Shown here piece after piece: positions 33,279 to 36,270 of a stretch of DNA of 42,864 nucleotides. Every line of letters starts with the position of its first letter. Within the stretch, counting starts at the first letter, position 1. Both the position numbers and the translations under genes were made by a program. This DNA comes from Acidisphaera sp. Lineage in GTDB: Bacteria; Pseudomonadota; Alphaproteobacteria; Acetobacterales; Acetobacteraceae. The DNA lies in assembly GCA_019240395.1 (NCBI GenBank), contig JAFAYM010000135.1, forward strand, positions 1 through 42,864, given 5' to 3'. The notes beneath the pieces are model-generated. The model worked only from the letters and a program-made list of their open reading frames with translations. It was not told the DNA's origin and searched no databases.

Positions 33279-33728
33279 ATGCCGGCACCTTCGGGCTACG
33301 CCACGGTGACGCCCTATCTGATCTTCGCCGATGCGGAGGCGGCGATCGCCTTCTGCACGGCGGCGTTCGGCGCGACCGAGCGGATGCGCCTGCCCTCGCC
33401 GGGCGGGCGCATCGGCCACGCCGAGATCTGCATCGGTGATTCCGTGATCATGCTGGCCGACGAGTTCCCCGACAGGGGTGCGCGCAGCCCGCGCACGATC
33501 GGCGGCACCCCGGTGACCATCCACCTTTATGTCGACGACGTCGACGCGACGGTGGCGCGCGCCATCGCCGCCGGCGCCCAGCTCACGCGCCCGGTCGAGA
33601 ACCAGTTCTATGGCGACCGCTCCGGCGCGGTGACCGACGCTTCCGGCCATGTCTGGCACATCGCGACCCGGGTCGAAGAGGTGCCCGAGGAGGAACTGCG
33701 CCGGCGCATGGCGGCGCTGCACGGCTGA
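33279..33728 (+). CDS. VOC-family protein (PhnB/glyoxalase-like)
   Basis: Cytoplasmic protein of 149 residues with one vicinal-oxygen-chelate fold of the PhnB type. TVTPYLIFADAEAAIAFCTAAFGATE at the start is followed by GHAEICIGDSVIMLADE, TIHLYVDDVDATVARAIAAGA, and DRSGAVTDASGHVWHIAT near the end. Proteins of this group often lack bound metal, and their substrates are mostly unknown. GGGAGACGC lies upstream of the ATG. It is 20 bp after eipB and probably in the same transcript. The C-terminal tail VEEVPEEELRRRMAALHG is typical of the group. Confidence 0.88.
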   Translation: MPAPSGYATVTPYLIFADAEAAIAFCTAAFGATERMRLPSPGGRIGHAEICIGDSVIMLADEFPDRGARSPRTIGGTPVTIHLYVDDVDATVARAIAAGAQLTRPVENQFYGDRSGAVTDASGHVWHIATRVEEVPEEELRRRMAALHG

Positions 33729-33801
33729 GGGCGCGCCCACGACCCCCGCCCGTGGTCACAGCCCCGGGAGCGTCGGGAAAAAGCCACGATTTCGCCCCGG
33801 T

Positions 33802-33826
33802 GGAACGGTTCTACTAATGCGTCGTT
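33802..33826 (+). promoter_or_regulatory. Perfect EcfG (general stress sigma) promoter for the histidine-rich protein gene
   Basis: GGAAC (33802-33806), exactly 16 bases, then CGTT (33823-33826): an exact match to the alphaproteobacterial EcfG consensus. It lies 69 bases before the ATG of the histidine-rich protein and is read in the same direction. Confidence 0.75.
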
Positions 33827-33895
33827 GTCAGGATGCGGATCAGGCGCCGCCGGATGGTCCGGATTGCGCCATCAGGGTCAACCAAGGAGAACACG

Positions 33896-34219
33896 ATGGA
33901 GAAGAGTGTCGCCGCCCTGATCGGGGCCATGGGTGCGCTTGCGGTAGCCGCCCCGGCGCACGCTGCGACGGTACAGGCGTCGCTGGCGACTGCCATGCAG
34001 GTGAACAGCTATGCGGACCTGTTGAAGCCCATCCCGAACGCCACGGCGCTACGCCAGGCGCTTGCGGAATCGCGCGCTGCCGAACCGGCCGAGCCCGAAC
34101 TCCTCCCGGTGCAGTATTACTATCGCCATCATCACCACCACCATCGCTGGTACCGGCGCTACCACCACCACCATCATCACCATCATCACCGCCACGGCTT
34201 CGGCATCATCATCCGATAG
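33896..34219 (+). CDS. Secreted histidine-rich small protein under general-stress control
   Basis: Protein of 107 residues. A signal peptide (MEKSVAALIGAMGALAVAAPAHA) is cleaved after about residue 23. A short helical middle follows (YADLLKPIPNATALRQALAE), and the C-terminal third has runs of six and nine His separated by RWYRRY, then RHGFGIIIR: 16 His within 30 residues. The His codons are mixed CAC/CAT and the tract is flanked by Arg/Tyr, so it is native. It should bind Zn, Ni or Cu in the periplasm or outside the cell; that is inference. The start has AAGGAGA 5 bases upstream. A perfect EcfG promoter lies upstream, so it is probably made under general stress. No named family recognised. 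Confidence 0.8.
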   Translation: MEKSVAALIGAMGALAVAAPAHAATVQASLATAMQVNSYADLLKPIPNATALRQALAESRAAEPAEPELLPVQYYYRHHHHHHRWYRRYHHHHHHHHHRHGFGIIIR

Positions 34220-34231
34220 CAAGGGCGCCGG

Positions 34232-34936
34232 TTAGCGCTTCGAGGACTTCGCCGCGCCATAGATGCGCCGATACGTGCCGTCGAACACCGTGTCGGTCGA
34301 GGATGTCCATTGGGTGTCGGCCGATAGCGTGGAGCGGCTCGCGTAAATCCGCTCGGACTGGAGCTCACGCTCGGCCGCCTCCTCCTCGGACATTTCGGCG
34401 AGCTCGATCCGGGCGTCAGGCTCCACCACCGTCATCTGGATGAAGGGCTCGCCGGGCCGGAAGATATGCGTCGCTCCCGCCGGCGGCGTCTTGAAGACGA
34501 CGAAGTAGATCATCGGCCACCAGTGCCGAATGATCGCGGGCACGGCGATCGGCACCGTCCCGGTGGTGTCGGTGAAAAAGCGCGGGTGGGTCTCGACCTT
34601 GATTGCCAATCCCGGCTCGACCTTCAGGTCGATGAGGATCTGATAGGTGTAGTATTCGCGGCCGAAGCTGCGGAACGGCGGCGGCTCCGAGTCGGGTGCG
34701 GGCCCCCCCGTGAAGGCGGGCGCGCCGTCGCGCGTGGTGACCTGCAACGGCTCGTCATAGGGGTAGAACAGCTCGACGCCGGCCGTCGCCGCTTCGGAAA
34801 ACGGGATGCAATGCCAGGGATGCTCGTGCGAGCCGTCCGCCCGCTTCTCGTTCTCGCCCGCCCAACCCGGAACCGCCAGCCGAGTGCGCCGGGGGCAGAG
34901 CCCGGGATTGTAGAGCCGGTATTTCACCAGAGGCAT
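34232..34936 (-). CDS. Conserved hypothetical protein (possibly DUF6065-like)
   Basis: Cytoplasmic protein of 234 residues without signal or membrane segment. Visible landmarks are HEHPWHCIPFSEAATAGVELFYPYDEPL near 37-64, FGREYYTYQILIDLKVEPGL near 90 and IFRPGEPFIQMTVVE near 160. The PW-x-C-x-P / PG / F-x-x-GEPF layout loosely recalls DUF6065 proteins, but the match is not firm. The C-terminal 60 residues are charged and probably helical (AEMSEEEAAERELQSERIYA). The ATG at 34936 has GGGAG about 10 bases upstream. It is convergent with the histidine-rich gene, 12 bp between stops. Function unknown. Confidence 0.7.
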   Translation of the reverse strand: MPLVKYRLYNPGLCPRRTRLAVPGWAGENEKRADGSHEHPWHCIPFSEAATAGVELFYPYDEPLQVTTRDGAPAFTGGPAPDSEPPPFRSFGREYYTYQILIDLKVEPGLAIKVETHPRFFTDTTGTVPIAVPAIIRHWWPMIYFVVFKTPPAGATHIFRPGEPFIQMTVVEPDARIELAEMSEEEAAERELQSERIYASRSTLSADTQWTSSTDTVFDGTYRRIYGAAKSSKR

Positions 34937-35010
34937 CGATCGCTCCCACGGCTGTGCCCGCGCCTGTCGGTGAAAGGAAAGCCAGGACAACGGCAAGTTT
35001 CGGGCAACGG

Positions 35011-36270
35011 CTACGACCCCGGCCGGCGCAGTCCCCTGCCGCGGCCGATTACCGCCTCGCCGTAGCGTGCCCGTAGTGCGTCCAGAGCCGCCTGCGCCGC
35101 GGCGGCCCGCGGCGCGTCAGGGTCGGCCAGGTCTCCCCGATCGGCGAGCGTTGCCGACACCAGCGATGTGGCGCCGATGCCGATCAGGCGAAACGCCGTG
35201 CCGTCCGCCTCGCGCGCCAGCAGGCTGCGCGCCGCGCCGAACAGCCGGTCGGGCAGCACGCTCGGCGCCGGCAGGCGGGCGGCGCGGGTGCGGGTGGCGA
35301 AGCCCGCGGTCTTCAGCTTGAGCACCACGCCGCCGGCGGCCAGCGCCGACGCCTTCAGCCGGCGCGCCAGTTTTTCCGACAGCAGCCAGAGATGATGCTC
35401 GAGCTCGGCCGTGCCGGCGAGATCGGCGTCGAACGTGGTCTCGGCGCTGATCGACTTCGCCTCCCGCCCGGGGTTGACGATCCGCGCATCCGCGCCGCGC
35501 GCCCGCGCCACCAGCGCCGGCCCGTCCTCGCCAAGCCGGCGCCGCGCCGTCGTCTCGTCCAGCGCTTGCAGCTGGCCGATCCGGGTGATGCCGAGCGCTG
35601 ACAGCCGCCGCGCCTGCGCCGGCCCGACACCCGGGAGCAAGCCCACCGGCTCGGTCGCCAGCACCGACGCCGCCTCGCTGCCGAGCACGCCGAAGCCACG
35701 CGGCTTGTCGCGCCCGGCGGCGATCTTGGCGAGCATCGGATTGGTCGCCAGGCCGATCGTGACGGTCAGCCCGACCTGCCGCTCGACATCCCCGGCGAAT
35801 CTCGCCAGCACCGCCGCCGGCGGCGCCCGATGCAGCGCCTCCGTGCCGGAGAGATTCAGCACCGCCTCGTCGATGGAGAGCGGCTGCACCAAGGGCGTCA
35901 GGCGAGCCATCAGCGCGCGGATCTCACGCGCCACCGCGCTGTATTTCGTGAAATCCGGGCGGATCACGACGGCTTCGGGGCACGCCTTCAGCGCCTTGAA
36001 CATCGGCATGGCGCTGCGCACCCCATACAGCCGGGCGACATAGCAGGCCGCGGTCACCACCCCGCGCCGGCCGCCGCCGACCAGCACCGGCGCGCCCGCC
36101 AGCTCCGGCCGGTCGCGCTTCTCCACGCTGGCGTAGAAGGCGTCGCAATCGACATGCGCGATCTGCAGGGCAAACAGCTCGGCATGGCGCACGATCCGCG
36201 GCGAGCCGCACGCCGCACAGATCGCGGCGTCATCTGCCGGCCGACAGCAATCCCGGCACAGCGCGGCCAT
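35011..36270 (-). CDS. dinB: DNA polymerase IV (Y-family) with N-terminal Cys cluster
   Basis: Translesion DNA polymerase of 419 residues. The active-site carboxylates are present: Asp41 in HVDCDAFYASVE and Asp134-Glu135 in LSIDEAVLNL. The usual Tyr-Leu-Asp after SIDEA is Val-Leu-Asn here. The little-finger region follows from about 255 (KSISAETTFDADL). A 30-residue N-terminal extension has CxxCC (5, 8, 9) and CxxC (18, 21), a likely zinc knuckle found in an alphaproteobacterial DinB subgroup and absent from E. coli DinB. It starts 3 bp after the ROK kinase stop, so the two are translated together. Confidence 0.92.
   Translation of the reverse strand: MAALCRDCCRPADDAAICAACGSPRIVRHAELFALQIAHVDCDAFYASVEKRDRPELAGAPVLVGGGRRGVVTAACYVARLYGVRSAMPMFKALKACPEAVVIRPDFTKYSAVAREIRALMARLTPLVQPLSIDEAVLNLSGTEALHRAPPAAVLARFAGDVERQVGLTVTIGLATNPMLAKIAAGRDKPRGFGVLGSEAASVLATEPVGLLPGVGPAQARRLSALGITRIGQLQALDETTARRRLGEDGPALVARARGADARIVNPGREAKSISAETTFDADLAGTAELEHHLWLLSEKLARRLKASALAAGGVVLKLKTAGFATRTRAARLPAPSVLPDRLFGAARSLLAREADGTAFRLIGIGATSLVSATLADRGDLADPDAPRAAAAQAALDALRARYGEAVIGRGRGLRRPGS

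Follow-up and report, generated by a model that had tools for sequence, protein, structure and literature searches.

A putatively exported histidine-rich protein of Acidisphaera sp. belongs to a conserved gene pair and lies behind an EcfG-type promoter site

A histidine-rich protein and its relatives

The window, a 42,864-nt stretch of contig JAFAYM010000135.1 from Acidisphaera sp. (GCA_019240395.1), encodes on its forward strand a putatively exported poly-His protein of 107 amino acids (33896..34219, stop codon included). An exact EcfG-type promoter sequence, GGAAC-N16-CGTT, lies upstream on the same strand (33802..33826), and an AAGGAG ribosome-binding site (33884..33889, +) precedes the ATG by 6 nt. 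On the reverse strand, a gene for a DUF6065-like protein of 234 amino acids (34232..34936) meets the His gene tail to tail, with 12 nt between the stop codons.

The initial annotation of this DNA described a 107-amino acid open reading frame with a signal peptide and two His runs, of 6 and of 9 residues; the sequence bears this out, with a start that resembles a signal peptide. Residues 1-23 (33896..33964, +) form a signal-peptide-like segment of the pattern M[DE][KR]xxxGLLGA...AxA, ending AHA|A in this protein, and residues 38-53 (34007..34054, +) form a core, SYADLLxPIPNAxxLL. The first His run covers residues 78-83 (34127..34144, +) and the second residues 90-98 (34163..34189, +); with His100 added, 16 residues in a stretch of 23 are His. 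Arg and Tyr lie among the runs, and Cys is absent. The start codon agrees with the homologues, which mostly open with M[DE][KR] at this position (31 of 35 have D/E and 33 of 35 K/R); another ATG at 33833, which would give 128 amino acids, sits only a few bases from the expected transcript start. The predicted model (pLDDT 69) has short helices only and an unstructured tail. As annotated, the protein falls in no named family, having no match at cut-off in either of the two libraries searched (Pfam and NCBIfam) and none in NCBIfam at E ≤ 0.1; in PHROGs neither it nor its partner had a match. Export and metal binding are both plausible from these sequence features.

By its sequence the protein is a member of an unnamed family with a signal-peptide-like start, the SYADLLxPIPNA core and a His-rich tail. 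Mean pairwise identity across 35 sequences is 0.68 in the core, 0.50 in residues 1-22, and 0.23 in both the linker (residues 24-37) and the spacer, and core residues Y39, L43, and P45 are invariant in 35/35 aligned homologues. Within the Acetobacteraceae, 31 of 397 genomes gave a family match at E ≤ 0.01, a count that includes at least 2 unrelated genomes (G100 and G293) and one (G015, E 0.0095) counted by score alone; matches in G012, G021, G100, and G293 lay within unrelated long frames and were dropped as homologues. Among 385 genomes of the class the family was matched at E ≤ 1e-4 in 2, including the window's own, and in the genus of G415, a Methylobacterium, it occurs in 19 of 111 genomes, 6 of them with an internal stop. 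A contig scan returned 17 loci in Acetobacteraceae metagenome-assembled genomes (MAGs), Acidisphaera, Methylobacterium, and Lichenifustis, 2 of them under other MAG labels. In the searches of the 397 and 385 genomes the best 12 candidates per genome were scored for the His gene and the best 7 for the partner, so distant relatives may be missed. The single other genome of the same genus (G001, 72% complete) has neither gene.

The nonredundant family set comprises 55 copies, one of them broken (L128). The longest His run is 7 to 19 residues in 52 of the 55, with a variable tail layout. The initial annotation had named beforehand a lack of His-run conservation in relatives as an outcome that would speak against it; a run of at least 5 is found in 52/55 homologues and missing from three: the broken L128, L059 with its 4 His, and L029, whose 12 His form no run longer than 2. 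Cys occurs in one homologue (L042). L029 (1498-1803, −), from Acidisphaera, has an exact N16 promoter, scattered His, and no partner gene, and is possibly a diverged or orphan form. L059 (3001-3279, +) also has an exact N16 promoter; its ATA in place of the ATG start and its low His content may reflect sequence error or decay in a MAG.

The EcfG-type site and the general stress regulators

The site at 33802-33826 matches GGAAC-N16-CGTT exactly, as first annotated. It is the single match in the window, and at least one match also arises in 15 of 100 shuffles of the window. The 69-nt spacing originally reported is correct when counted from the last base of the site up to the start codon at 33896, not to the ribosome-binding site at 33884-33889. 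In the 4.5-Mb host genome the bare pattern occurs at chance level, with 22 exact matches versus 25 for the reversed pattern, and as evidence in itself it was dropped. To assess placement, a simple score of codon usage served to call open reading frames near each of the 22 sites and each of the 25 reversed-control sites. Sites outside open reading frames numbered 10/22 versus 8/25, and sites both outside open reading frames and within 200 nt of a co-oriented start numbered 9/22 versus 0/25 (Fisher p = 3.7e-4). The feature that exceeds chance is placement before starts, not the pattern count. A spacer of 17 was rejected in this genome; because it gave 8 matches versus 19 in the control, a spacer of 16 is the informative one here, and the placement control covered the spacer-16 sites. 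Scanning 8 of the 9 genes behind placed sites (all but the His gene) returned DUF3072, CheB methylesterase, FGE-sulfatase, 2Fe-2S, and epimerase families, one weak HC2 match, and 2 genes without a match. DUF3072 genes are a usual target of such EcfG-type sites. The 5' leader of the His gene has no RNA structure beyond that of shuffles, and neither a sigma-70 promoter nor an intrinsic terminator was found at 33700-35100.

The host genome contains the regulators that such a site would require. Contig C112 carries a phyR-ECF-ECF-nepR-HWE kinase locus in which phyR is divergent from the 2 ECF sigma factor genes and the kinase is of the HisKA_2/HWE type, and the PhyR protein combines a PhyR_sigma2 match (9e-12) with a receiver domain. 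PhyR, NepR, and ECF sigma genes are all present, and either of the 2 ECF sigma factors is a candidate for EcfG. The intergenic region between phyR and the ECF sigma genes has no EcfG-type site with ≤1 mismatch; the ecfG genes of M. extorquens are likewise reported to have no such promoter (PMC4814048). A second, NepR-like short open reading frame, below the Pfam cut-off, lies elsewhere in the host genome, away from the phyR locus (L028:1486-1665, −).

Related sites recur upstream of the homologues. A first look at 45 copies, with spacers of 15-19 and one −10 mismatch allowed, found a site in 16, compared with 4, 3, 1, and 0 for scrambled motifs, 0 on the other strand, and 3 farther upstream. 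With the motif then fixed as GGAAC-N16/17-NGTT (−10 relaxed) within 150 nt, a site was found in 21 of the 55 homologues, in all 21 cases at −80 to −100. Twenty-nine permuted −35 controls averaged 0.6/55; the highest count, 14, came from GAACG, which is the motif itself shifted one base downstream, and the second highest was 2. The −10 element is CGTT in 4 of the 21 sites, GGTT in 5, TGTT in 11, and AGTT in 1. Published work on the Methylobacterium extorquens EcfG regulon gives a consensus of GAAC-N16,17-C/GGTT (PMC4814048), and like that regulon 9 of the 21 sites (9/55 homologues), including the window's, fit C/GGTT, the window promoter also matching GGAAC-N16/17-[C/G]GTT; unlike it, the other 12 sites begin the −10 element with T or A, the 11 TGTT sites being one base off the published form. 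Some upstream sites carry a partial inverted repeat after the −35 element (e.g., GGAACGATTCC, GGAACGTTCC, and GGAACGGTTC), which could serve as an additional binding site or be a chance feature. By eye, G418 and G421 show degenerate forms of the site that stands before the similar copy L059, and four loci found via the partner have no EcfG-type site.

The site also follows the regulator across genomes. Pfam PF22233 was dropped as a test of PhyR absence because the PhyR of the host genome itself escaped it, and was replaced by a full-length PhyR profile of 3 rows, the host's own PhyR being one of them; matches to this profile include G417, with a stop inside, and the partial G056. PhyR was found in 23 of the 49 family-bearing genomes, and the site is present in 19 of these 23 versus 1 of the 26 without a PhyR match. 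The PhyR-containing genomes without the site are G102, G234, G056, and G735, and the one site without a PhyR match is an exact N17 site in the MAG G413. The absence of PhyR from the MAGs G413, G418, G421, and G425 may be due to assembly incompleteness. The 19 genomes belong to Methylobacterium, Lichenifustis, and the Acetobacteraceae (5 genomes), and represent fewer than 19 independent events because 13 of them are from one genus. EcfG control, as proposed in the initial annotation, is well supported in silico by the phyR/ECF/nepR/kinase locus, the recurrence of the promoter across lineages, and the association with PhyR, and the His gene transcript would be expected to depend on EcfG. Because 26 of the 49 carriers are without a PhyR match, stress control is a feature of certain lineages only, and the function of the protein must serve under other control too.

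Pairing with a DUF6065-like gene

The initial reading of the protein as a metal-binding stress product is partly supported and was incomplete, as the His gene forms a conserved unit with a second gene. Across 24 enlarged loci the sole widely recurrent neighbour is the DUF6065-like gene, found in 22, the next cluster reaching 3 among the matches listed; the 2 loci without it are L136 (G007) and L144, one of two copies in G247. No metal gene appeared as a conserved neighbour in the enlarged loci, a minority of whose neighbours were scanned with Pfam. In the family set 51 copies were assessable, and 48 of them have the partner within 700 nt of the His gene. The two genes are convergent in 46 of these pairs, with gaps of −79 to 151 nt in 43, and co-directional in 2. 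The count of 48 includes tandem second copies and the broken pair, and sets aside 4 of the 55 copies with <900 nt of downstream sequence; treating as misses the short loci L044 (885 nt) and L038 (551 nt), where no partner is visible in the available sequence, gives 48/53. Assessable copies without a partner are L134, L042, and L029. A third co-directional pair is L173, the other G247 copy.

Genome-wide searches give the same picture from the partner's side. The partner gene occurs in 26 of the 397 Acetobacteraceae genomes, every one of which (26/26) carries the His gene, and among the 385 class genomes both profiles match the same 2, the window's own included. G007 and G110 have the His gene and no partner in the assembly, and in G155 the two genes are on different contigs. 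Searching with the partner alone matched 4 plasmid records, and the His gene adjoins the partner in 4/4 partner-first regions (3 plasmid regions and one viral-collection contig), a count that leaves out the fourth plasmid match, a second Methylocella tundrae record. On a Polymorphobacter plasmid (L183:3001-5065, +) the partner, the His gene, and a sigma-70 family gene follow one another on one strand. Tandem His genes, 2 copies next to one partner gene, are seen in L040, L043, and L053. In L128-L133 (6 genomes from the Methylobacterium genus of G415; the His gene matches at 1501-1758), which agree in coordinates and scores, both genes are broken, the His gene by a TAG ahead of its tail and the partner by a split between frames; this joint breakage is probably one decay event. 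Distances between His proteins and between partners correlate (21 pairs, Mantel r 0.745, 0/5000 permutations), a relationship for which common ancestry alone could be sufficient. An EcfG-type site precedes the partner gene in just 1 of 27 cases (L062); partner genes are thus not, as a rule, controlled by the same promoter type as the His gene.

The partner is called DUF6065-like here because the window copy scores 24.0 bits (E 3.1e-5) against Pfam DUF6065 (PF19541), below the curated cut-off of 26.6; 19 of 27 partner proteins match this family at E ≤ 0.1, the best with E 2e-6. Partner homologues are highly conserved, sharing 53% to 74% identity with the window copy, and the motifs WHCxPF, HPR, and H-x-FR are invariant. 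No N-terminal signal peptide was seen by eye, and we infer that the protein is cytoplasmic and acts on the His protein. Three partner proteins had no NCBIfam match at E ≤ 0.1, the best PDB match by sequence had an E of 0.37, and no paper naming DUF6065 was found in the literature searched. The predicted model (pLDDT 69.6, pTM 0.64) is beta-rich with C-terminal helices. Its best solved-structure matches are trimeric dUTPases (Foldseek E 1.7e-3, for a moderate-confidence model), with alignments to 8y1q_C (VIA Z 9.7, rmsd 5.2, 130 aligned) and 8hrv_B (Z 9.5, rmsd 2.8, 114 aligned). In a viral library the top 5 matches are unnamed or uncharacterized proteins, many of those that follow being dUTPases. 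The partner's GEPF[MI]Q resembles, by eye, the dUTPase motif GDRIAQ. The dUTPase or beta-clip match of this predicted model is a suggestion about fold, with no function implied.

Proposed role of the pair

From the promoter, the regulators in the genome, the family with its conserved His-rich tail, and the near-obligate pairing, all observed in silico, a possible mechanism can be outlined. Under general stress PhyR would free an EcfG-type sigma factor from NepR, and the freed sigma factor would transcribe the His gene from 33802-33826, the gene probably being switched on by this response. The product would be exported through its Sec-type signal peptide, retaining the SYADLLxPIPNA core followed by a disordered Tyr/Arg/His tail, and in the periplasm or envelope the tail could reversibly bind divalent metals (Zn, Ni, Cu, or Co), buffering them under stress. 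The putatively cytoplasmic DUF6065-like protein from the convergent gene would act specifically on the His protein, either before export or on its expression. The pairing with one gene points to a stress system of two parts, possibly a metal-binding one. The most likely reading is an exported buffer for metal (or protons) that the partner matures or controls, and for the specific version, a two-gene stress module in which a dedicated partner accompanies an exported metal buffer, we see about an even chance.

The nearest working analogue of the pair is the bufferins, which are described as metal-buffering RiPP precursors with Sec signal peptides that are modified by MNIO enzymes, with sigma-factor genes in the clusters of one subfamily (PMC12452194). 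As in bufferins, a small precursor with a signal peptide, metal buffering under stress, and dedicated partners are (here as predictions) found together. Unlike bufferins, the window protein is His-rich without Cys, which excludes membership, and its partner is DUF6065-like; none of 6 window proteins scanned is an MNIO (DUF692) or a DUF2063 protein. A His-rich tail is shared with other His-rich metal-binding proteins, namely Hpn, SmbP, and the His-rich part of ZrgA (PF10986), and to our knowledge neither the SYADLLxPIPNA core nor the partner is part of those families. At E ≤ 0.1 the ZrgA model weakly matches 10 of the 35 family members (best E 8.6e-4), most likely through their His composition, and does not match the window protein; one homologue has weak NCBIfam matches to ZrgA, HypB, and ZnuA, far under cut-off. 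Among the matches listed, the family does not appear, by titles and abstract starts, in literature on His-rich proteins, EcfG/PhyR stress, or metal buffers, and no description of the pair of His gene and DUF6065-like gene was found.

Other explanations account for parts of these observations. The conservation of the signal peptide above the linker, the near-obligate pairing of a small, putatively exported precursor with a protein lacking a signal peptide, and the 2 precursor copies next to one partner in L040, L043, and L053 could all be expected of a Sec-exported modified, RiPP-like peptide, for which bufferins provide a precedent of RiPP precursors carrying Sec signal peptides (PMC12452194). 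Signal peptide and core would then form a leader to which the DUF6065-like protein binds in the cytoplasm, and the partner would modify the Tyr/His tail or hold the precursor before export, comparable to MNIO enzymes and bufferins with other chemistry. We consider this unlikely: the partner's best fold matches are dUTPases with no catalytic motif identified, the convergent layout (46/48) is unlike a biosynthetic operon, and a few copies have no nearby partner, 2 genomes having none at all. Its fuller version, a new class of such peptides, is distinctly speculative; in it a DUF6065-like partner of dUTPase fold would recognize the conserved signal peptide/SYADLLxPIPNA segment in the cytoplasm and modify or load the Tyr/His tail, the product would be exported as a stress-induced metallophore or buffer, and the two genes would have spread between alphaproteobacterial orders, also on plasmids.

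It is also doubtful, if conceivable, that the tail serves as an acid-related polycation or proton buffer. His residues protonated near pH 6 and below would let the protein buffer protons or coat the envelope in acidic habitats, metals being incidental. Carriers do include Acetobacteraceae and Acidisphaera, source fields record Sphagnum peat, tundra wetland, and lichen, presumably acidic habitats, and the Arg and Tyr interspersed with the His runs of the window protein are compatible with this role; yet His runs as long as those of the family (7 to 19 in 52/55) are also expected of a metal ligand, and the carriers also include Methylobacterium, which we do not know as acidophiles. Finally, the closeness of the two genes, with 12 nt between stop codons in the window and, in 43/46 convergent pairs, gaps between −79 and 151 nt, and the lack of a detected intrinsic terminator at 33700-35100 could mean that the partner acts as a regulator or as an antisense neighbour, the convergent transcripts overlapping and tuning each other. 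This seems very improbable, as the pairing is kept in the co-directional L045, L049, L173, and Polymorphobacter plasmid loci, where convergent overlap is impossible.

A small hypothetical open reading frame thereby becomes half of a well-defined, testable two-gene module, whose control is readable from an EcfG-type site that occurs mostly where PhyR is found. The DUF6065-like gene, on which no paper was found in the literature searched, gains a specific partner. Individual effectors of the alphaproteobacterial general stress response are, as far as we know, often uncharacterized, and if the metal or the modification reading is true, the pair would add an exported buffer to that response.
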